Shown: positions 657 to 31,879 of the stretch, piece by piece
Layout of the letters: every line of letters begins with the position of its first letter
Numbering within the stretch: the stretch's first letter is position 1
Source of the DNA: Nitrospirota bacterium
GTDB lineage: Bacteria; Patescibacteriota; Gracilibacteria; UBA1369; LOWO2-01-FULL-3
Length of the DNA stretch: 34,904 nt
Assembly (NCBI GenBank): GCA_030598325.1
Contig: JAUVQE010000003.1
Span: 1-34,904, forward strand
Reading direction: 5' to 3'
Program-made: the position numbers and the translations under genes
Notes under the pieces: model-generated
Told to the model about the DNA's origin: nothing
The model's database searches: none
Seen by the model: the letters and a program-made list of their open reading frames with translations, nothing else

Positions 657-2381
657 ATGGCAATAAACCAGGAAATTCTGGTAAAAGCACTATTGGAGAA
701 GAAATTGATACAAGAAAAGGCCTTAACCGGCTTTATCAGTCATGCCAAAACTCAAAATAAATCTCTGGAAAGTTTGCTGTTTGAACGTGAAGTAATATCG
801 GATAGTAAATTGGGAGAAGTGGTCGCGGAACTTTATGGCGTTCCATTTATAAAAATCACTGAAAAAACAATATCCGAACCATTACTCAGAATAATTCCTT
901 ATACGTTAGCATCCCATCAATTCGTAATCCCTTTCGAAAGCAACGGAAGCGATCTGCAAATAGCATTAAACAACCCTCACAATTTTGAATTGATGAGTTT
1001 TATTGAAAAAAAGACGGGACTAACAATAATTCCCCATTACGCGACCAAAAAAGACTTAAAAACAGCATTAAAAGTATACAACAGAGACGTTAATCGAAAA
1101 TTTAATACACTACTGAAAAGCGCGTTAAAAGACCCGACAAAAATAGAATCGTTAAAAGACGCGGCCAAAATTTTGGATACAATAATATTCTTTGCGTACC
1201 AAAACAACGCTTCGGACGTTCACATCGAACCGCACAAAGAATTCATATTAGTCAGATACAGAATTGATGGAATTCTTCAAACAATTGCCGAATTACCGAT
1301 GGCGATACTTGAATTGCTCACAACAAGAATAAAAGTTCTGGCAAATATGCGGACAGATGAACACAGGGCGGCGCAAGACGGACGTTTCAAAATTGAACTG
1401 GAAAATATTGAAATAACCCTCCGTGTTTCGATCATTCCAATATATGAAGGAGAAAAAACAGTCCTCAGATTATTGAGTTCCACAAGCCAGGAATTGAATT
1501 TGGAGGCATTGGGTTATTCGGACAGAAATCTAAAAGTAATCCATAATAATATTTTGAAAACAAGTGGATTAATACTGATGACGGGACCGACAGGATCAGG
1601 AAAAACAACCACTCTATACTCAATTTTAAAATTACTTAATTCTCCCGAGGTAAACGTAGCAACAATCGAAGATCCAATCGAATACAGGCTCGAAGGAACA
1701 AATCAAATTCAGGTTAACCCCAAAACAAATTTAACCTTTGCCAAAGGGTTGCGGGCATTACTTCGACAAGATCCGGATATCGTAATGGTGGGGGAAATCC
1801 GTGACGAAGAAACCGCGGACATAGCAATAAACGCGGCATTAACAGGACATATAGTTTTAGCGACACTGCATACAAACGACGCCGCGTCCACCATCCCGAG
1901 AATGCTCGAAATGGGTGCGGAAGCATTTTTATTATCCGCGACAGTAAAAACGATAATCGCCCAAAGGCTGGTCAGAACAATCTGCTCAAAATGCAAAAAA
2001 GCTTACAAAATAAGTAAAGAAAAATTCAACGAACTTGGACAAAAATTTAATTTGGGTAAAAATTTCGATGAAATTTTTCAGGAAATCAGCGAAACAAACC
2101 CCAAATTAAAAGAAACCCTGTCCGGAACCGAAGTAATCATCAGTAAAGGGGAGGGTTGTGCCTCATGTTCGGGAAGCGGATATAAAGGCAGAACTTCAAT
2201 AGCGGAAGTAATGGAAATAACAGAAGATATTAAAACACTCATATTAAAAAACGCTCCACCGAGAGAACTGGAAGATAAAGCAAGAGAACAGGGGATGACC
2301 ACAATATTCGCTGACGGAATTTTAAAAGTTCTTAACGGGGAAACCACATTGGAAGAAGTATTAAGAGTAATGCGTACTTAA
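657..2381 (+). CDS. pilB: Type IV pilus assembly (extension) ATPase, PilB/GspE family
   Basis: Walker A MTGPTGSGKTTTLYS, Asp box IEDPIEYRLEG, Walker B-like DPDIVMVGEIRDEETA, His box GHIVLATLHTNDA, tetracysteine CSKC...CASC zinc motif. Confidence 0.95.
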   Translation: MAINQEILVKALLEKKLIQEKALTGFISHAKTQNKSLESLLFEREVISDSKLGEVVAELYGVPFIKITEKTISEPLLRIIPYTLASHQFVIPFESNGSDLQIALNNPHNFELMSFIEKKTGLTIIPHYATKKDLKTALKVYNRDVNRKFNTLLKSALKDPTKIESLKDAAKILDTIIFFAYQNNASDVHIEPHKEFILVRYRIDGILQTIAELPMAILELLTTRIKVLANMRTDEHRAAQDGRFKIELENIEITLRVSIIPIYEGEKTVLRLLSSTSQELNLEALGYSDRNLKVIHNNILKTSGLILMTGPTGSGKTTTLYSILKLLNSPEVNVATIEDPIEYRLEGTNQIQVNPKTNLTFAKGLRALLRQDPDIVMVGEIRDEETADIAINAALTGHIVLATLHTNDAASTIPRMLEMGAEAFLLSATVKTIIAQRLVRTICSKCKKAYKISKEKFNELGQKFNLGKNFDEIFQEISETNPKLKETLSGTEVIISKGEGCASCSGSGYKGRTSIAEVMEITEDIKTLILKNAPPRELEDKAREQGMTTIFADGILKVLNGETTLEEVLRVMRT

Positions 2382-18869: not shown

Positions 18870-19763
18870 ATGAAAATGGATTCCCTCATTCAGGATTTTC
18901 TGGAGTATTGCGAGGTTGCGCAGAACAAATCTGAAAGAACGATAGATAATTACAAAAGATATCTTGGAAGGTTTCAGGAATTTTTGGAAAAAAACATTAG
19001 TCCGTCACAAATTACATTAAAAATCATACAAAACTACAGACTTTACCTAAAACGCCAAGATCTAGGGCAAAAAACTCAAAACTATCATCTGATTTCGCTT
19101 CGCGCATTTCTGAAATACCTTTCAAAAAACGATATTAAAGCGCTCGCTCCGGAAAAAATAGAACTCAGCAAAACAGCGGAAAGAACAGTAGAAGTGCTTT
19201 CTCACGAAGAACTAAAAAGATTATTTTCAGCGATCGATCGCACTTCATCCGCCGGCTATCGCGACGCCGCAATCCTCGAAACACTCTATTCGACAGGCCT
19301 CCGTGTTTCCGAACTTGCCTCTCTAAATCGTGACCAGGTCGATATAAAAAGAAGAGAATTCATGGTCCGGGGAAAAGGCAAAAAGCCACGAATTGTTTTT
19401 TTATCAAAAAAAGCGGCCGAAATTATCCGGTCCTACATGAAAACTCGCGACGACAACTTCAACCCACTCTTTATTAACAGCGGAAAAGGTCAGTCGTCAG
19501 ATATCCTGGACTCAGAAGCCAGGCGCCTCTCCACTGTCTCCATCGAAAAAATCGTCCGAAAGTACGCCCTAAAAGCCGGCATCATCAAAAAAGTAACTCC
19601 ACACACCCTCCGTCACAGCTACGCGACCGAACTCCTGATAAACGGCGCTGACATTCGCTCCGTCCAGGAAATGCTCGGCCACAGTTCAATCACAACCACC
19701 CAAATCTACACCCACGTCACAAACAAAAAGCTCAAAGAGATTCACGATAAGTATCATCGATAA
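18870..19763 (+). CDS. Tyrosine recombinase XerC/XerD-like
   Basis: SAM-like N-domain; ETLYSTGLRVSELASL, TPHTLRHSYATELLINGADIRSVQEMLGHSSITTTQIYTHV (catalytic R, H-x-x-R, H, Y). Confidence 0.95.
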   Translation: MKMDSLIQDFLEYCEVAQNKSERTIDNYKRYLGRFQEFLEKNISPSQITLKIIQNYRLYLKRQDLGQKTQNYHLISLRAFLKYLSKNDIKALAPEKIELSKTAERTVEVLSHEELKRLFSAIDRTSSAGYRDAAILETLYSTGLRVSELASLNRDQVDIKRREFMVRGKGKKPRIVFLSKKAAEIIRSYMKTRDDNFNPLFINSGKGQSSDILDSEARRLSTVSIEKIVRKYALKAGIIKKVTPHTLRHSYATELLINGADIRSVQEMLGHSSITTTQIYTHVTNKKLKEIHDKYHR

Positions 19764-19765
19764 TC

Positions 19766-20524
19766 CTACTTCGCCACAAAACTGGTAGCTCCCAACCACG
19801 CCAAATCAAATATCGCCCTGTTCGTCTCAGCATTATTCGCGCTCTCTATAATCACCCCCATCATCTCATTCCGATCAAAAGAAAGCGTCGAAACCTTATT
19901 ATCATAGATATATTGGGCATTTTTGAACGCAAATTGCTTCGGGTTTACCGCAAAAATCTTAAGTAAATTATTTTCCGCAAGACCAATCAGGTTATTTTCA
20001 AAATATTTTTCATGAAATTCATCATTCGGACATAAAAATCTATGATTTTTCCCTTTCTTCAGCGCTTCCTCATTGTAATTCTCCAAAAAATCGGGATAAA
20101 GCTCGGAAACATACTTAAAGTTAACAAAACCCACAATTTCCCCTTTACATTCCAGCATATCGTCAAAAATCTCTCCTACTCGGGATTTCCCCTCCAAAAA
20201 ACGAACATTTGGCTTAAAACGGCGCGTATTCTGAAGATTAACAAGCTCAGGTACAAGTCTTTTCGCCACCCTGTAGTTATCCTCAGCGCCCTCAAGAATA
20301 GTCGCAGGATCCACGGGAATATAGAAAAGAACCCCATTTTTCTTTGTTTTCCGCAAAAACCCCTTCTTTTCAAGGTTTTCAAGAGTGTTATACGTGGTAA
20401 CTCTGTGAGAACCAGCCTTCTTTGCGATAGTTCCGGCACCTCCGCCACCGATTCCAAGAAGTACGGTATACACATTTGCCTCTTCCCGGGAAAAACCTAA
20501 TTTGTTAAGCTCACTTTTGACCAT
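19766..20524 (-). CDS. TrmB-family transcriptional regulator
   Basis: wHTH LNKLGFSREEANVYTVLL...TIAKKAGSHRVTTYNTLENLEKKGFLRK; start set to 20524 (MVKSELNK) rather than 20563 because a candidate -10 (20569-20574) places the TSS near 20562. Confidence 0.8.
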   Translation of the reverse strand: MVKSELNKLGFSREEANVYTVLLGIGGGGAGTIAKKAGSHRVTTYNTLENLEKKGFLRKTKKNGVLFYIPVDPATILEGAEDNYRVAKRLVPELVNLQNTRRFKPNVRFLEGKSRVGEIFDDMLECKGEIVGFVNFKYVSELYPDFLENYNEEALKKGKNHRFLCPNDEFHEKYFENNLIGLAENNLLKIFAVNPKQFAFKNAQYIYDNKVSTLSFDRNEMMGVIIESANNAETNRAIFDLAWLGATSFVAK

Positions 20525-20610
20525 CCGATTATGGGTTTGTAATAAACTGTAGACGACTATCAACAGATATTATATGGTGCTAAACCCTATTTTTAAAGCG
20601 AAAATCCGAA

Positions 20611-22409: not shown

Positions 22410-24635
22410 CTAAATCAAAGGCTCATCAAATTCAGGCTCCTCCTGATGCCCAAGGTCACCAAATTCCCCAGCTTCATCCCATTTTGAAAGCATTTCCTCG
22501 ACTTTGTCACGAGATTCGCAATAAGTCGCCCTGGAATTTGCAATAATTTCAGGAGCAAAATGATTTCCCGCTTTTACATTCGGACAATCAATAGTCCGCG
22601 CCGAAAACGCCTCACGAATCTCTCCATCCACAGACATTTTGCAATAAAATTCACGGACACCGAGATTTATAATATCCCTCTCTTTGAACACCGGCGTGTA
22701 TTCCTCAGCCAAAATCTTCGCATCATCAGCCCCTACACGGAAACTAATCACGGAACCAACATTACCAAACACCGTTTTTCTCACGAAATCAGACAACTGT
22801 CCCATATACTGATGCGCGATTGTCAAATTCAACCCGTACTTCCGCGCCTCCGACAAAATTTCCGCAAACGTATCCGTAGCAAAATTCTGAAACTCATCCA
22901 CATAACAATAAAAATCACATCTTTTACTTTCTTCCGTATCCGCCCGGGAAAGCGCCGCCTGATACAACTTCGTAATAATCATCGCGCCAAGCAAACCACT
23001 GTTTTCCTCACCAAGTAGCCCTTTCGAGACTTTTATGAAAATAATTTTTTGACCATCCATGATCTCCCGCAAATCAAATTTGCTATCCGGCTGACCAATA
23101 ATATTTCGAATCATATTCGTAGCGACAAACTGCCCAACCTTATTCAAAAGCGGCGTGATCGCCTCCGCATCAAACTTCTCACTCCATCCCGCAAACTCGC
23201 TCACCCAAAAATTCTTTACCACATTATCCTGAATCCGGGAAACAATGGTCTGACGATAGTTTTTATCAGTCAGCATTTTGAGAATAGAGAGGACGGTGGT
23301 ATTTGGACTATCAAGTAGCGCCAGAACCGTATACCTCAGCACATGTTCTAACCTGTCAGTCCAGTTTGAACCAAAAAGCTTCTTGAAAATCTGAATAAAG
23401 CCAATGGTCACCTGCATCTTTTGCGCCTCAGCAACATTTTCCATCGGATTAAAAGAAATCGGGAAATTCAGGTCAGCGGGATCAAAATAAATCACATCTT
23501 TTATACGATCTTTCGGCACATATTTCATGCAATTATCAACCAAATCTCCATGCGGATCCAAAACTCCAACGCCCTTTCCGGCTTCAATATCCTCTTTAAT
23601 CAAAAGTTCAAGCAATTTCGACTTACCGGAACCCGATTTTCCCACTACATAAAGATGCCGGCGCCGATCACTCCTTTTTATTCCAAACTTATCAAAATTG
23701 TTATGATAATTGGTGATACCAAAAACACTCACATCCTTTTCTCCCATTCTCGGTAGATCCTGTGGGGCCTCTGATTTCTTCGCGAGAACATGCACCACAT
23801 GTGGAACCAAATCCGGATTTGGCAAATGATATAAAGTAGCCAGCTCTTTCGGCCCCAGCATATAAGAATTCACCAACTTCCTTCCCCTGTACTCAGCCAA
23901 AAAAGTCTTTTCGTTCAAACGAACCGGTTTAAATTCCTGAACATCGGTCTTATTAAATTGATAAAAACTGTTTATAACGGCCTCAAGCCTCCTCCGGGCT
24001 TCGGCCTTGTCTTTCGAAAAATAAGCCAGACGAATCGTACAATGAAAAGGCTCCACCTTCGCCTTCTCTATAGCAAGCGTATTTCTCACTTTCATCACAC
24101 TATTTTCGTCCTTAATTCTCATTCTGTCACGAAGGGAAAAAACTTTTTTAAAATTATTCCACTTCAGGAAAATCCTGCGCTTAAAATGATGAAAAGCGCT
24201 CTCTTCCCGCGGGTTTATAACAACCTGGCACCAAACCTGATCTCCCGAAGCAATCTTTGAAACAACTGAAAAAAGCCGAATCTGACTATCCTCATCAAAT
24301 TCATCATAAGTTTTAAACGGATAAACATCACCTTTTCTAAGCCTTAACCTTACCCCGCTCATACCCATCTTATTCGAATCATAAGATTGGGTGTAATCGG
24401 AAGTCTCCTTGATTTCACAATCCGGATATGCGGAGTAAAGCAAACCCTCCATCGTTTCATAAAAATTATCCGGAACCGCGAAGAATAAATACGTATACTG
24501 CTCATAACCAAAAAATTCCATTGAAATCGTCACATTCTTAACCGTATTTTGCAAATTCACAAGAAGCTCCTGGAAAATAGTTTCCTTTTTCTTCACACCA
24601 TCTCCTTGTGGCACTACAACTTGAAAATACTTCAT
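22410..24635 (-). CDS. VirD4/TraG-type (type IV secretion coupling-like) ATPase
   Basis: Walker A VVGKSGSGKSKLLELLI; GVLDPHGDLVDNCMKYVP; CDFYCYVDEFQNFATDTFAEILSEARKYGLNLTIAHQY. Confidence 0.85.
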   Translation of the reverse strand: MKYFQVVVPQGDGVKKKETIFQELLVNLQNTVKNVTISMEFFGYEQYTYLFFAVPDNFYETMEGLLYSAYPDCEIKETSDYTQSYDSNKMGMSGVRLRLRKGDVYPFKTYDEFDEDSQIRLFSVVSKIASGDQVWCQVVINPREESAFHHFKRRIFLKWNNFKKVFSLRDRMRIKDENSVMKVRNTLAIEKAKVEPFHCTIRLAYFSKDKAEARRRLEAVINSFYQFNKTDVQEFKPVRLNEKTFLAEYRGRKLVNSYMLGPKELATLYHLPNPDLVPHVVHVLAKKSEAPQDLPRMGEKDVSVFGITNYHNNFDKFGIKRSDRRRHLYVVGKSGSGKSKLLELLIKEDIEAGKGVGVLDPHGDLVDNCMKYVPKDRIKDVIYFDPADLNFPISFNPMENVAEAQKMQVTIGFIQIFKKLFGSNWTDRLEHVLRYTVLALLDSPNTTVLSILKMLTDKNYRQTIVSRIQDNVVKNFWVSEFAGWSEKFDAEAITPLLNKVGQFVATNMIRNIIGQPDSKFDLREIMDGQKIIFIKVSKGLLGEENSGLLGAMIITKLYQAALSRADTEESKRCDFYCYVDEFQNFATDTFAEILSEARKYGLNLTIAHQYMGQLSDFVRKTVFGNVGSVISFRVGADDAKILAEEYTPVFKERDIINLGVREFYCKMSVDGEIREAFSARTIDCPNVKAGNHFAPEIIANSRATYCESRDKVEEMLSKWDEAGEFGDLGHQEEPEFDEPLI

Positions 24636-24658: not shown

Positions 24659-24687
24659 ATTAAAGCACTTTTCTCTTTTTTTGTCAA
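24659..24687 (-). promoter_or_regulatory. Promoter for the VirD4/TraG-like gene
   Basis: Minus strand TTGACA (24687-24682) - 17 nt - TTTAAT (24664-24659); the -35 overlaps the TGA stop of the upstream Cys-rich gene. Confidence 0.65.
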
Positions 24688-26345
24688 TACACAGCCTCAC
24701 GATAGCATTTTTCGCAATAAATATTCCTTCCCTTCTCCGGATCATATGTAGTTTTAATATCACAACCACACTTATCACACTTATTCTCCCATAATTTCCT
24801 AGGATTTTTCGAAGCCAACAACTTCAAGTGTCTACAATCCGGACATCTCTTCGATAAATTTACTCCCATCCTCTTGCATAAATCAAATTCTTCTCTCAAA
24901 AATCTATAGTTCTTTCCACAATCCACACATGCTAATAACTTCCCGACAATATCATCCCCAGCCTTAAGAATAAGATCTGGGACCTCGCACTCACCCTTCT
25001 TATACCCTTTCGGATCCTTTTCCCTCCACTTCCATCCATTTTTCACAACTTCCTCCTCACTCATCGGAAAGTATTCATTGGCAACCGTCTCATTGTACGA
25101 ATACAGAGATAATTCAATCGGTAAAAACTCACCATACTCTCCTGTTTTTAAAACATGCTCTAAGACTTTGCTCCTTAATTCATTATATTCCTCAGCAGAA
25201 TATTTCTTGTTTAATACACAGTTTTCTGACTTTGAATGGATACCATCACATCCAAAACTATCCTTTAAATAAAAACAAGAATACAAATAATCACTATCAA
25301 TACTAGCTATCGTACAAAAAGAAAACCTCAGTCTTTTATTGCTTTCTCCACCTGAACAAAGCTCGTAGCACAACTCAATATCCTTATCATGCATTGCCAA
25401 ATCCATAGAATCCTTTACGTTAACTGCCTCATACATATATTTACAATCTTCCAAATCGAAACAATCATAACAGTCAAAACTATTTTTACAGTTTTGCATA
25501 TAATCACCAGAACAATTTTCACAATTAATTAGATTTCGTGCTTTTTTTGGAACTTTCTCACTAAATTCTATGAATTCTTTAAGCAGTTCTTCTGAATTTT
25601 GCGTTAACTTTCCCGTAACAATCTTTTTGTATTCTTCTTTTGAATATTGGTCGTTCTTAAAACAGTATTGTTTTTTTGAAAGACTCGCACACATAAAACA
25701 ATCACTACATCCAGTCGAGTCAGCCACATATAAACAATCTCTACAATTATTACAATTGATCATATTTTGAGAAGAATAACAGTTCTTACAATTTATAGAT
25801 GAACAAATAAGCTCACAATGATCTATAAAATTACAATCTAGACAATCGTTGGAGTATTGACTCTTTCTACAGTAATAACAATCTTCCAAAAAATAGCTAC
25901 CAGGACTCATATAAGTATTTTTGCAAAAAGCTAATAAGCTATTATAATCTGAATTTTCATTATTCAACTGAAGCAACCCCATCTTTGGGACAACATCAAG
26001 TAATTCTTTATACTGATCAAAAAATGGCCTGGAGAAATCAAAGTCTCGCCCATAATCCATTGCATCCCATTTATCACTCCACCAACAATCAACACAATAA
26101 ACAGGAAAACTTACTTTATCATCAAAAAAAGACACCATGGATTTTTCACATAAGTCACATTTTCTTTTATATAAATAGCGTTCATTTCTGAAAGCTAATC
26201 TCCGTTGTTGCCTGCAATCAGGACAAAGAGTCGGCGGTGGAACTTCATATTTTCTTCCCCCAAATTCAGGAGAAATCTTTTTGAAAAAAGCCAAATCATC
26301 TTCGGCAATCTCAAACTCAGAACCACATTGTTTACAATTATCCAT
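24684..26345 (-). CDS. Cys-rich protein with terminal zinc-ribbon modules and central Cys-rich repeats
   Basis: Start placed at 26345 (MDNCKQCGSEF); paired CxxC modules at both ends; central ...EDCYYCRKSQYSNDCLDCNFIDHCELICSSINCKNCYSSQNMINCNNCRDC... repeats. Confidence 0.8.
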   Translation of the reverse strand: MDNCKQCGSEFEIAEDDLAFFKKISPEFGGRKYEVPPPTLCPDCRQQRRLAFRNERYLYKRKCDLCEKSMVSFFDDKVSFPVYCVDCWWSDKWDAMDYGRDFDFSRPFFDQYKELLDVVPKMGLLQLNNENSDYNSLLAFCKNTYMSPGSYFLEDCYYCRKSQYSNDCLDCNFIDHCELICSSINCKNCYSSQNMINCNNCRDCLYVADSTGCSDCFMCASLSKKQYCFKNDQYSKEEYKKIVTGKLTQNSEELLKEFIEFSEKVPKKARNLINCENCSGDYMQNCKNSFDCYDCFDLEDCKYMYEAVNVKDSMDLAMHDKDIELCYELCSGGESNKRLRFSFCTIASIDSDYLYSCFYLKDSFGCDGIHSKSENCVLNKKYSAEEYNELRSKVLEHVLKTGEYGEFLPIELSLYSYNETVANEYFPMSEEEVVKNGWKWREKDPKGYKKGECEVPDLILKAGDDIVGKLLACVDCGKNYRFLREEFDLCKRMGVNLSKRCPDCRHLKLLASKNPRKLWENKCDKCGCDIKTTYDPEKGRNIYCEKCYREAVY

Positions 26346-28008
26346 AAATGGCTTCGTTATAGCATTTTTCACAATAAACAGTTTCCGGTCGATCCGGTGC
26401 ATATGAAGTTTTTATATCAACTCCACACTTGTCACACTTACGAGTCCAAACTTTATGAGGATTTCGCACCGACAACCGAACTTCGTTTCGAGTTTCAGGA
26501 GCCAATCTAGGAATCGGAATCTTCATTCTACGATAAAACTTCAATTCCTTCTCATTAATTTTATAAGGTCGCCCACTCTTCTCACATACCAAATTTTTAC
26601 TCAAAATATCGTCACCAACATCATCAATCGAATCAGGAATCTTCTCACCATTTTCAATCTCTTTTTCCTCTTCCTCTACCCAATTCAAGCCTGCCTCCGA
26701 AACTTCTTCCCGATTCATGGGAAAGAGATCATTGGCAACCGTTTCATTATAAGCCCACGGCGAAATGTTCATCGGGAAAAATTCACCCCACTCACCGGTA
26801 GACTTCATATGCTCAATAATTCGCGCTCTCATTTCAAAATAATCTTCCTTAGAATACTGTTTATTCAAAATACAATACGAAGCCTTCTTCATATTACTGC
26901 AACCAAAAAGATCATGAGAATTTTGGGCAATAGTATCGCAATAACGAGTGTCGTTTGCATGCCAAACAAATGATCCATAAGCACAATTTACGCCGGAAAT
27001 AGAACCCAACATTTCATAAAACAATTCGCATCCTTCATGTCCAACATGATCACTACTCGCGGCATCTTTGATACCCCAACCCGCAAGATAAACATCCTTC
27101 AAATCTTCAGCCGGTCCGGAAATATCAAAACAGTTATAAGCATTCTTCGCATTCACCAAATTATCACCAAAACTATTTTCAACATTCACCAAATTTGCAA
27201 ACTTATGAGGGAATCCTAATCGAAATTTATCAAACTCAGCCTTCATTCGTTCCACCGCAGAATAACTACCAAAATCATACTCCTTCATCTTCGTTTCATA
27301 CTCCTCTTTCGAATATTTCTTATTAAAAATATGATATTCCTTATTCCTCAGCCCCACACAAAACGCACAATTACTACAAGAACGACAATCAAACAAAAAC
27401 GCGCTATCCCGACAATTCTGCGAATTTCTACAATACTTACTCTCATACATTTTCACACAATCAATCAATTCGTAGCTCAATCTCGATTCCTCAACCCAAT
27501 AAGTGTCGTACAAATCCTGCGAATGAAAACAAAAACCGTCATACATACAATCCTCATTGAAATCCCCTCCAAAAACCAGATAACAATTCTTGTTTGAAGT
27601 CGTAATATTGCAATATTCGCTATTCTCAGCCTTCATATTCATCAAACTAAACCGCGGAACCGCCAACTGCAGCTCATGGAATTGTTCAAAAAAAGGCCGG
27701 TTAAAGTCATAATCACGGCCATATTCCTTTGGATCCCAATCATCACTCCACCAGACATCCTGGGAATAAACTTTATATGGTTTGTCAGAAGAATACAGGG
27801 AAATTATCGGATTACCGGTCAGATCACATTTATCTTTGTAAATTCTCCGCTCATTTCGATGAGCCAAACGTCGGCGCAATCGCTCATCCGGACACAAAGT
27901 CGGCAAAGGGAGCTTCATTCTTCGCAAAAGATCCTGTTCCCATTCAGTAATAACAAAATTTTTCCCGCTTACCCTGCATTTAAGGTTTAAATCAGCCATG
28001 GAAAACAA
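26338..28008 (-). CDS. Paralog of the neighbouring Cys-rich protein
   Basis: Collinear similarity (PTLCPDERLRRRLAHRNERRIYKDKCDL; WWSDDWDPKEYGRDYDFNRPFFEQ; NETVANDLFPM; KCDKCGVDIKTSYAPDRPETVYCEKCYNEAIYG); ATGGATAA overlap with the downstream paralog. Confidence 0.82.
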   Translation of the reverse strand: MFSMADLNLKCRVSGKNFVITEWEQDLLRRMKLPLPTLCPDERLRRRLAHRNERRIYKDKCDLTGNPIISLYSSDKPYKVYSQDVWWSDDWDPKEYGRDYDFNRPFFEQFHELQLAVPRFSLMNMKAENSEYCNITTSNKNCYLVFGGDFNEDCMYDGFCFHSQDLYDTYWVEESRLSYELIDCVKMYESKYCRNSQNCRDSAFLFDCRSCSNCAFCVGLRNKEYHIFNKKYSKEEYETKMKEYDFGSYSAVERMKAEFDKFRLGFPHKFANLVNVENSFGDNLVNAKNAYNCFDISGPAEDLKDVYLAGWGIKDAASSDHVGHEGCELFYEMLGSISGVNCAYGSFVWHANDTRYCDTIAQNSHDLFGCSNMKKASYCILNKQYSKEDYFEMRARIIEHMKSTGEWGEFFPMNISPWAYNETVANDLFPMNREEVSEAGLNWVEEEEKEIENGEKIPDSIDDVGDDILSKNLVCEKSGRPYKINEKELKFYRRMKIPIPRLAPETRNEVRLSVRNPHKVWTRKCDKCGVDIKTSYAPDRPETVYCEKCYNEAIYG

Positions 28009-28983: not shown

Positions 28984-30192
28984 ATGCACAAGATCAGAAC
29001 ACATCACAAACACGAAGAAGGAAAAATCTTCTCCCGATTAATCCTCATAATAGGTTTCGGGATAGGGTTGTCACTTCCAATATTTCCAAACTTTGTAAAA
29101 ACAATCTTAAGTACGGATTCGGCAACAAGCGCCTTTTATTCAACAATGGCGATAGTAATGATGATAACGGCACTGACCAGTACATTTCTCCTGAGAAAAG
29201 TCGAAAGATCCACAATAATAAAAGTAAGTCTCATTATTCTAAGCGCTTCATTTTTTGCCTTAATATTTGTGACGAGAATACAGTCGCTTGCGATTTTAAA
29301 CGCGCTTCAAGTCATTTTTTTACTGTTTGTAGTCATGACACTATCTCTATACGTAAGAGATTTTGCCAAAAGTAGAGACTTAGGCAAAGAAGAAGGAAAA
29401 TTTTTCAAATATCAAAACCTCGGTTACTTCGTCGGGCCGCTTATAGGTGGATTTACAGCGGTATATTTCGGTTATGAAACCGCATTTATATTATCATCCC
29501 TTGCTTTTATGCTCGGGTTTTTATATTTCAGTCATTTGCGTATCGTCCAGAAACATCCCGCAATTGTCGAAGGAAAAAAACAACCGCAATTTAAATTTTT
29601 TGAAAATCTAAAACACTATTTTAGAGAAAAAAACAGACGCAAAGTTTTCATATTCACTTTATTTTTAATGATATGGCTGGGATTTAAAAGGCTCTACATA
29701 CCGCTTTATATAGTGTTTTCCGGATACATAGAAAGCATGACGGGAATTATACTTGCCCTGACTATAGTTCCATTAATTTTAATGGAAGAAAAAACAGGGG
29801 AGTACGCCGATAAGCATGGAGTCAGAAAGCCAATAACACTTGGATTTACAATAATGGCGCTAAGCCTCCTGATAATCTTTTTCAACCCGTATACATTCGT
29901 CAATTTTTTTATTATCGTAGCCGCGCATTTCGGAATGGCGCTGGTGGAGCCGCTACAAGAATATTTTCTTTTTAAAAACATGAAGAAAAAAGACGAAGAT
30001 AATTTATATGGAATATATATGACCGCGGATCCGATAGCACTTTTCCTGACACCGACAATTGGAGCGGTAATACTGATATTTTTCCAGTTCAATCACTTAT
30101 TCCTGTTTTTTGGAATAATTATGGCTATCGCAAGCGGATTTTCGTGGTTTACCCTAAGACAGAAGTTGCCCGATGAACTTCCTCAAGAGTAG
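28984..30192 (+). CDS. MFS-type membrane transporter
   Basis: Roughly 12 hydrophobic segments; YQNLGYFVGPLIGGFTAVYFGYETAFILSS is MFS-like. Confidence 0.8.
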   Translation: MHKIRTHHKHEEGKIFSRLILIIGFGIGLSLPIFPNFVKTILSTDSATSAFYSTMAIVMMITALTSTFLLRKVERSTIIKVSLIILSASFFALIFVTRIQSLAILNALQVIFLLFVVMTLSLYVRDFAKSRDLGKEEGKFFKYQNLGYFVGPLIGGFTAVYFGYETAFILSSLAFMLGFLYFSHLRIVQKHPAIVEGKKQPQFKFFENLKHYFREKNRRKVFIFTLFLMIWLGFKRLYIPLYIVFSGYIESMTGIILALTIVPLILMEEKTGEYADKHGVRKPITLGFTIMALSLLIIFFNPYTFVNFFIIVAAHFGMALVEPLQEYFLFKNMKKKDEDNLYGIYMTADPIALFLTPTIGAVILIFFQFNHLFLFFGIIMAIASGFSWFTLRQKLPDELPQE

Positions 30193-31879
30193 TCAAACCC
30201 TGAGCGACTTTCAAAAAACCATCTTCCCGCAATGTAATAATGCCATCTTTTCTCGCCGCCGCGATTAAATCAACAGAACTAGCGTTATCGAGAATCAACT
30301 GCTTCATTTCTGAAGTAATAGTCACGACTTCGGCAAGAACAAGCCGTCCAAGATAACCGGTGTTGCTACAGGCATCACATCCATGAACTTTGGCGATCTT
30401 ATCGGGGATCTGTGCCTCAATCCCCGGATTAACTTTTTTCAGATTTTCAAATATTTCCGAGAATTCTTTTTCTTCACTTTTGCTAATGGGCTCGGATGTC
30501 ACACATTTCGGGCAAACTTTACGCACCAGGCGCTGGGCGACAATAGTATTAAGAGCGGGCGCCACCATAAAAGACGGAAGCCCCATATTCACAAGACGCG
30601 GAATAGCTTCAAGCGCGCTGTTTGTATGAAGAGTGCTTAAAAGAATATGACCGGTAAGAGATGCCTGCGCCGCGGTTTCAGCGGTTTCAATATCACGAAT
30701 TTCCCCAATCATAACAACATCAGGATCATGCCTTAAAATAGAACGCAGTCCCGTGGCGAAATTATAATCACGGCTTTCATCAACCTGACTTTGAGTGACC
30801 CCTTTCATGTAATATTCGACAGGATCTTCCAGGGTGATAATTTTATTTTCGGGAGTATTCATTATCCCGAGAATTGAATACAAAGTTGTGGATTTACCGC
30901 TTCCGGTAGGACCGGTAACAAGAATCATTCCCTGGGAAATGGTTGAAGCTTTTTGCAATTTTTTTAAAGCCAACCCCTGGAATCCAAGCTCTTCAAGAGT
31001 CAGAGCTTTGCGACCCGAAGGTAAATATCTGCATACAAAAGATTCACCATACGGAGTTGGGATCGACGCGACACGAACAGCGGTTTTATTTTTATTAAAA
31101 ACAAAAACATATCGGCCATCCTGCGGTATTGAAACCACATTAAGCTTCATTTTCGATTGATATTTGATTTGCTCGGCGATTTTGGAATAAATGCCTGCAT
31201 CAATTGTAAAAACCTCATGAAGCACGCCGTCTATACGAAACCTGACAACAACACGCCCTTCCTCCGGCTCATAATGGACGTCGGATGCATGAGTTTTCAT
31301 TGCGGCAACATTTAAAAGGTTTAACCCCTCCTCAGCTGTAATTTCAGAAAGTTTTTTTGGTAAATCTTTTAATTGGGTGATTTCTTTCTCATAAGTTTTG
31401 ATAGCCCCTTCCTCGACTTTCTCAATAATTTCAATTTTTTTATATTTTTGCGTGGATTTATAAAATTTTAAAGCATCATCAATTCCGGCGGATGAAGCCA
31501 AATTTACATTAACTTCATAGCCTTGTTTTTGTAGGGCCTCAATTGTGCTTTTTGTTTCAGGATCTTCAGGTTCTTCTACGGCAACCCTCATTTTTTTCCC
31601 GACTCTGAAAAATGGAATAAGCCGAGCCTTCTGCGCATCCTCATAATCAACCAATTTTAAAAAATCAGCATTAAGCGGAGTTTTTGCAATATTTATATAA
31701 GGCAATTCCAAATCTCCGGCACGCTTCAAAGTGGATTTTTCCTGAAATTCTCTGTTCACCTGGGAAACAGCGGTAGAAGTGGTCACCATTTTTGACGCAG
31801 ACTTTTTGCTTTCAGCAGAACCCTGTGCCTGATCAGCCACTTGCGCTTTGTCACCCGTAGTAAGATCCTGATTTACCAT
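30149..31879 (-). CDS. Second PilB/GspE-type ATPase
   Basis: Walker A VTGPTGSGKSTTLYSILG; LEDPVEYYMKGVTQSQV; DPDVVMIGEIRDIETAETAAQASLTGHILLSTLHTNSA; CPKC...CDAC zinc motif. Confidence 0.94.
   Translation of the reverse strand: MVNQDLTTGDKAQVADQAQGSAESKKSASKMVTTSTAVSQVNREFQEKSTLKRAGDLELPYINIAKTPLNADFLKLVDYEDAQKARLIPFFRVGKKMRVAVEEPEDPETKSTIEALQKQGYEVNVNLASSAGIDDALKFYKSTQKYKKIEIIEKVEEGAIKTYEKEITQLKDLPKKLSEITAEEGLNLLNVAAMKTHASDVHYEPEEGRVVVRFRIDGVLHEVFTIDAGIYSKIAEQIKYQSKMKLNVVSIPQDGRYVFVFNKNKTAVRVASIPTPYGESFVCRYLPSGRKALTLEELGFQGLALKKLQKASTISQGMILVTGPTGSGKSTTLYSILGIMNTPENKIITLEDPVEYYMKGVTQSQVDESRDYNFATGLRSILRHDPDVVMIGEIRDIETAETAAQASLTGHILLSTLHTNSALEAIPRLVNMGLPSFMVAPALNTIVAQRLVRKVCPKCVTSEPISKSEEKEFSEIFENLKKVNPGIEAQIPDKIAKVHGCDACSNTGYLGRLVLAEVVTITSEMKQLILDNASSVDLIAAARKDGIITLREDGFLKVAQGLTTLEEVHRATSVLG

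Follow-up and report, generated by a model that had tools for sequence, protein, structure and literature searches.

The window considered here, a 34,904-nucleotide (nt) stretch of DNA from a very small, uncultured member of the Patescibacteria (positions 1 to 34,904 of contig JAUVQE010000003.1, assigned to Gracilibacteria), encodes two adjacent cysteine-rich paralogs, P0001 and P0002, followed by an ATPase of the VirD4/TraG/HerA superfamily. We propose, as a tentative reading that we regard as close to an even call, that P0001 and P0002 belong to an undescribed family of Patescibacteria solenoid proteins and are dedicated partners of a soluble, hexameric motor of the VirD4/HerA type, namely, the ATPase encoded just downstream of P0001. 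The family members are probably interchangeable parts of a molecular machine that has not been described previously. The ATPase gene next door is the main clue to this relationship and was overlooked in the original prediction, an annotation of the window from its sequence that assigned no function to the two proteins. The features of the window are summarized in Table 1.

As originally predicted, the two genes overlap by their stop and start codons, ATGGATAA, and encode paralogs of the expected size, which are 39-41% identical. Throughout, the start codon was taken to be the first or nearest Met; for P0002, a gene-calling tool places the alternative start at TTG 28008. The N-terminal module of these proteins is homologous to the C-terminal one (hhalign probability 99.9, E 2e-31, 38% identity), in line with the predicted resemblance of their C-x2-C ... 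C-x2-C patterns, and the first half of the central region is homologous to the second half (probability 99.9, E 6e-37); as judged by profile comparison, both halves are true internal duplications. Because the end modules and the central halves are each homologous, the layout can be written as ZZ-S-S-ZZ, where ZZ is a double treble clef and S is a solenoid. This layout is kept in 254 full-length relatives and, given also the internal homology of modules and halves, is more than a chance arrangement. Both predicted copies of the NKxYSxEEY motif and the NETVAN...FPM linker are present. About a dozen relatives encode orthologs of P0001 that are 50-63% identical to it, and P0001 and P0002 represent separate orthologous groups that also adjoin in another genome (G050).

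The ATPase gene lies on the same strand and begins 48 nt after the stop codon of P0001, with the two coding spans 52 nt apart. Its motor domain, with intact Walker motifs, scores above the gathering thresholds of PF02534 (43.7 bits) and PF10412 (31.9 bits) and is the domain common to VirD4/TraG coupling proteins and HerA helicases (PF02534, PF10412, PF01935). This ATPase, which together with its orthologs is hereinafter called type A, scores far under the curated equivalog cut-offs for models of the VirD4/HerA type; in the case of the HerA model NF040819, the score is 15.2 bits against a cut-off of 970, and the DUF87 core alone matches. Unlike VirD4/TraG coupling proteins, which possess an N-terminal membrane anchor, none of the 37 type-A sequences examined contains an N-terminal transmembrane segment; windows over the transmembrane threshold were found in four of these, all at about residues 340-368, inside the motor domain. 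The partner differs as well: VirD4 and HerA proteins work with a relaxase or NurA, whereas here the partner appears to be a solenoid protein.

Type-A ATPases, defined as full-length orthologs with at least 50% identity over the aligned length (partial ones being counted at contig ends), are encoded in 39 of the 43 relatives that carry the solenoid family and in none of the 17 that lack it (Fisher p=1.5e-11, a value that takes the genomes as independent, without phylogenetic correction). The four family-positive genomes without a type-A ATPase are metagenome-assembled genomes (MAGs) that are 79-90% complete, and four taxonomic families (f1, f4, f8 and f12) each include both positive and negative genomes. 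In the rest of the class, the ATPase is found in 9/9 positives and 0/5 negatives. Family-negative genomes still carry other VirD4 paralogs, of about 730-920 amino acids (aa), so the association does not merely reflect the presence of any VirD4. The genes are often neighbors: a family gene is located within 3 kb of the ATPase in 22 of 37 loci, and within 500 nt in 13. Outside the class, the ATPase and a family gene adjoin in G072, G216 and G324, and each of the 24 genomes with a solenoid match in a sample of the phylum encodes a VirD4/HerA-type ATPase, in many cases adjacent or on the same contig. A double-solenoid gene can also lie near a larger VirD4 protein: in G246, this neighbor measures 1016 aa, carries a hydrophobic segment at its N-terminus and takes the place of type A, and under the handle L168:4900-9945 the gene for a double-solenoid protein lacking zinc fingers is located upstream, by about 1.1 kb, of a VirD4 of this size and kind, with a sigma-70 region 4/HARE-HTH protein in between. 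Most of these genomes are MAGs, in which contig ends hide neighbors; because a genome can be listed both by G handle and by accession name, array and ATPase-locus counts were each taken from one set only, and the alignments were made non-redundant.

The simplest form of the putative partnership comes from another class of Patescibacteria, where two genomes (G123 and G242) encode a 230-237 aa protein in which some 95 N-terminal residues are joined to a single solenoid that has the same cap as the full-length family members (GKRFCIANMQFEEEEY), next to the gene for a soluble ATPase of the same superfamily; that of G242 is 25% identical to the window ATPase (E 8e-29). A search of the class identified such minimal single-solenoid proteins (229-237 aa, without zinc fingers) in 11 of 195 genomes, in 10 of which the solenoid gene directly follows the soluble ATPase gene, the two either overlapping by up to 14 nt or being separated by up to 16 nt; a TrmB-like gene precedes the ATPase in two of these ten loci. 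The minimal-pair ATPases have no N-terminal transmembrane segment. In the eleventh genome (L204:8199-10085, minus strand), the ATPase and the solenoid form a single 629-aa in-frame open reading frame with intact Walker motifs, the two parts showing 46% and 68% identity to their separately encoded counterparts in G410; this fusion lacks about 146 N-terminal aa of the ATPase and 39 of the solenoid protein. The profile of the minimal solenoid matches full-length family members (hhalign probability 97.9, E 5e-13), in both halves.

The solenoid family is represented by two copies in the source genome, which is 74% complete, and by matches in 46 of 60 relatives, with a maximum of 32 copies in a 1.5-Mb genome. 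A scan of 84,980 species yielded at least 78 loci; among those listed, all named matches come from Patescibacteria, chiefly Peregrinibacteria, Peribacteria and Gracilibacteria, with a few others such as Abawacabacteria, Nomurabacteria and Harrisonbacteria, and the rest are labeled 'bacterium'. The suggestion in the original prediction that similar proteins occur in other genomes of this radiation is thus borne out, and, in keeping with its lack of a functional assignment, no characterized family was found to include them; nor did the open-access papers searched contain a description of the family. A text search for 'Caib/baif family protein', a name that automatic annotation sometimes gives to such proteins, returned no match. 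The paralogs are old: for 60 of 66, the closest relative resides in another genome. Recent expansion by gene conversion was rejected, the best within-genome identity having a median of 42% compared to 55% for matches in another genome, as was origin from mobile elements: phage and plasmid records gave no match, and IMG/VR a single fragment. Some members of about 313-335 aa (L151, L152, L157 and L158), encoded near a type-A ATPase, comprise two solenoids without the zinc modules. Elsewhere (L038:1725-3530, L044:8644-10177 and L042:8368-9953), family genes are interrupted by stops or frameshifts, in some cases next to an intact copy, which suggests turnover or assembly errors.

Solenoid 1 is a strict 12-residue coil. 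The 224-sequence alignment splits into 12-residue units, such as NKNCYL..,.EDCYY.., CELCYECIDC and CKNCFGC, with an inward residue of the Cys/Ser/Leu/Val class at each third position; the autocorrelation of Cys frequency is 0.72 at lag 3 and 0.70 at lag 12, and a protein carries on average 13.8 Cys at the 34 inward positions vs 0.40 at the 68 outward ones. For the cysteine spacing originally described as roughly periodic, the first half shows a strict 3/12-residue register and the second half, where solenoid 2 is less regular, a looser register. This register and confident AlphaFold2 models with repeats for both proteins (for P0002, with the deeper alignment, pLDDT 92.1 and pTM 0.92; for P0001, pLDDT 86.3 and pTM 0.89, with a weak first solenoid at 55-69) uphold the Cys-lined beta-solenoid that had been proposed, along with the modeling check suggested for it.

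The original prediction further left open metal storage or a redox scaffold, functions for which the large number of cysteines, up to 47 per protein and stacked in the solenoid, might seem to speak. The behavior of these residues is different. At the same sites, Cys exchanges freely with Ser, Leu, Val and Ala; positions six apart show no pairing signal (mean association -0.09, with several pairs at -0.3 to -0.53), and there is no even-number bias, an even Cys count occurring in 49% of the proteins. Inward residues compensate one another in side-chain volume at spacing 3 (mean r -0.195) and spacing 9 (-0.119), an effect confined to the inward phase, whereas the two outward phases are flat; our initial expectation of compensation at spacing 6 was wrong, the value there being slightly positive. 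The minimal relatives keep the coil with 4-14 Cys, and because their inward residues are largely Ser (39%), Ile (16%) and Val (14%), with 19% Cys, cysteine is not essential to the coil. Being interchangeable with Ser, Leu and Val and unpaired, the cysteines look like core packing, and the data fit a solenoid core packed by reduced Cys; a metal-storage or redox role for Cys ladders is, in our estimate, very improbable.

Searches of solved structures by sequence, with a single query and the A4 profile, gave nothing useful, and the sole match of the A2 profile was one LIM-type finger. Foldseek found no significant match in the PDB, the best being left-handed beta-helices at a TM-score of about 0.1; enzymes of that fold (LpxA/GlmU/gamma-CA), with a best E of 0.01 at TM-scores of 0.07-0.08 and, for the P0001 model, a best E of 0.45, were rejected as relatives, and the likeness was treated as a generic solenoid resemblance. 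Among viral models, there was likewise no significant match (best E 0.013); one viral zinc ribbon superposes 40 residues at 0.4 A, which supports the finger fold only. The closest geometric analogs are the hyperactive antifreeze proteins of beetles (TmAFP and DhbAFP; PDB 1EZG), which share the 12-residue coil and the inward position, Cys included, at every third residue, in an in-out-out register, and in which inward Cys six apart are disulfide-bonded (PMC8038014). Ice binding by the family, the function that this shared geometry would suggest, has nonetheless a negligible probability: the disulfide pattern between inward positions six apart is absent from solenoid 1, there is no Thr array equivalent to the TxT ice-binding face (Thr makes up 2.3% of outward positions), no signal peptide is evident, and the linkage to the ATPase would be left without explanation. 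Furthermore, the solenoids of P0001 and P0002 are duplicated, capped, flanked by zinc modules and apparently cytosolic, and neither sequence nor Foldseek searches match them to the beetle proteins, which are analogs of coil geometry only.

The zinc modules at both ends were correctly anticipated, although not as zinc ribbons: each is a pair of treble clefs, corresponding to one double treble-clef module (PF13451 zf_Tbcl plus PF23477 zf_Tbcl_2; TIGR04272). The last finger of P0001 is the only part recognized by Pfam (PF23477, 27.9 bits vs a cut-off of 27), PF13451 and TIGR04272 remaining below cut-off, and P0002 reaches 19.7 bits, also under the cut-off, with the double treble-clef model; at E<=0.01, PF23477 matches 39 and PF13451 matches 24 of 64 members. 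Proteins of 96-129 aa that consist of a stand-alone double treble clef are encoded in relatives without the solenoid family; here, by comparison, two copies flank two solenoids, and the fingers lose their ligands as sets. P0001 retains 16 of 16 ligand Cys, as do its closest orthologs, L040 excepted. In P0002, the four fingers read CSCE, CTSV, CSAT and CCCC, so that ligands are lost in three and the last is intact. Among 126 members, complete Cys4 sites are found in 90% (F1), 31% (F2), 42% (F3) and 95% (F4) of the fingers, and the values for F2 and F3 compare with 2.8% and 11.5%, respectively, expected under independent ligand loss, an expectation that ignores the relatedness of the members. 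The four ligands of one finger are kept or lost as a set. Because the set is lost while the domain stays, the fold seems to do without zinc in many paralogs. Metal sites are limited to these terminal fingers. The fingers are basic (mean charge +5.0 for F3F4 and +2.1 for F1F2, compared to about -5 for each solenoid), and they alone are candidates for binding nucleic acid, the likeliest substrate judging from fold and charge.

Many family genes have a regulator of their own. Of the 33 TrmB-like genes in the fetched loci, 26 stand head-to-head with a family gene, separated from it by a median of 163 nt, and 26 of 120 array heads possess such a regulator gene; the correlation between TrmB and family copy numbers is weak (Spearman 0.38). 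The TrmB-like gene of the window, about 2 kb beyond the ATPase, has an ortholog (78%) in G002, a genome without the solenoid family; it is doubtful as a dedicated regulator, and this copy is probably not specific to the family. Members of one protein family of 712-737 aa, without a Pfam match, are repeatedly encoded between a TrmB-like gene and the ATPase or array (L034:12032, L039:4451-6661 and L153:11623). Other neighbors, set aside as lineage synteny or housekeeping, are an SLH protein, EamA, a Mur ligase and, assigned by eye, an AI-2E-type transporter and an RNase Y-like protein; at L063:7656-10439, an SLH-domain protein with Big_1/invasin-like repeats lies beside a family gene. The window also encodes a tyrosine recombinase and two PilB/T2SSE-type ATPases about 28 kb apart, and contains no Rfam match.

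Table 1. Features of the 34,904-nt window
Feature	Position	Strand	Length	Remarks
PilB/T2SSE-type ATPase	657-2381		574 aa	assigned only by clustering with the second copy
XerC/D-type tyrosine recombinase	18870-19763			PF00589
TrmB-like winged-helix regulator	19766..20563	-	252 aa	length from ATG (19769-20524)
VirD4/TraG/HerA superfamily ATPase	22410..24635	-	741 aa	soluble
P0001	24684..26345	-	553 aa	47 Cys; layout as P0002, but complete Cys4 in all four treble clefs
Stop/start codon overlap of P0002 and P0001	26338..26345	-		ATGGATAA
P0002	26338..27999	-	553 aa	most likely start ATG 27999; double treble clef (both fingers without ligands) - solenoid 1 - solenoid 2 - double treble clef
P0002 solenoid 1	27330..27630	-		residues 124-223; about eight 12-residue coils, NKxYSKEEY cap at the end
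PilB/T2SSE-type ATPase	30149-31879		576 aa	assigned by Pfam

Taken together, these relationships suggest a scenario in which each motor ancestrally had a single solenoid. Tandem duplication in the Gracilibacteria/Peregrinibacteria lineage would have given a double solenoid with a double treble clef as a cap at either end, and the resulting protein would have expanded into many paralogs, up to 32 per genome, many in operons with their own TrmB-like regulator. The solenoid would be the conserved part that engages the motor; since no other part is shared by all forms and one genome has it fused to the motor, we infer that the solenoids dock on the ATPase. The zinc-finger ends, apparently a later addition, positively charged and variable in ligand state, would for these reasons be the part that selects the substrate. 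The basic treble clefs may hold the substrate, probably a nucleic acid, for the motor to translocate or remodel, and the paralogs might serve as alternative substrate-selecting adaptors. A single soluble motor of the VirD4/HerA type that exchanges one Cys-lined solenoid adaptor for another from a set of tens of paralogs, many of them locally regulated, would be a new class of machine, an extension of the proposal that we consider rather doubtful.

Several considerations weigh against the proposed motor-solenoid machine. We infer the physical interaction from gene co-occurrence, adjacency and one fusion, and the fusion, seen once and with both N-termini lost, could for that reason be a decaying locus. 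The genomes are related, so the co-occurrence counts are not independent, although both states are found within each of four taxonomic families, and 15 of 37 ATPase loci have no family gene within 3 kb, most of them cut by contig ends, six not. With 10-30 solenoids for each motor, the paralogs could be clients or effectors just as well as adaptors; nucleic-acid binding is deduced from fold and charge only, and many paralogs lack complete F2 and F3 fingers.

The main rival explanation is that the ATPase exports the paralogs as its substrates, in which case they may be type IV secretion effectors that reach the host cell of these epibiotic bacteria. Reception of substrates is the classical role of VirD4-like ATPases, the family is a large one with many operons that have their own regulator, the double-solenoid gene of G246 lies near a VirD4 with an N-terminal hydrophobic segment, and, in Saccharibacteria, type IV secretion genes are essential for epibiotic growth (PMC12857230). 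We nevertheless consider this explanation unlikely, given that the type-A ATPase has no membrane anchor, that the paralogs are old and conserved, unlike effectors with their fast turnover, that each ATPase of the minimal module has a single solenoid, fused to it in one case, and that no export signal is evident from sequence. Among the Pfam-examined neighbors, there is no VirB4, VirB6 or relaxase, with some neighbors unscanned and VirB4 elsewhere in the genome not searched. Equally improbable, in our view, is a DNA-processing or defense machine akin to HerA-effector systems, in which a HerA-like motor would move along DNA with the solenoid/finger proteins as DNA-binding or sensing subunits. 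The matches of the ATPase to HerA and conjugative coupling-protein models, PADLOC matches to mad8 and HerA at the superfamily level, the basic terminal fingers and the patchy presence among relatives are all compatible with such a role, but the partner has no nuclease, NADase or other effector domain, the neighboring genes are housekeeping ones, and PADLOC gives no match for P0001 or P0002.

If P0001 and P0002 are indeed partners of the soluble motor, the finding bears on a broader puzzle of Patescibacteria biology. These bacteria have tiny genomes and many VirD4-like ATPases far from secretion loci, with roles that are unexplained: of the 5,713 VirD4 homologs in a survey of the phylum, only 148 are near virB4 (PMC12102498, Quinonero-Coronel 2025), and a term search of that survey shows no mention of zinc or of a solenoid partner. 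The type-A ATPases probably make up some of these orphan homologs, so that one orphan group is now tied to a specific partner family, unnamed in the literature as far as searched, that takes up as much as about 3-4% of some genomes, and an orphan motor and a family of hypothetical proteins become one testable system. The proteins are also a clear natural case of a 12-residue solenoid with a core packed by Cys, seemingly with neither disulfides nor metal, and of zinc-finger domains that persist after all the ligands of a finger have been lost together. If the motor does swap its adaptors, an ultra-small genome would gain many substrate specificities from one pump.

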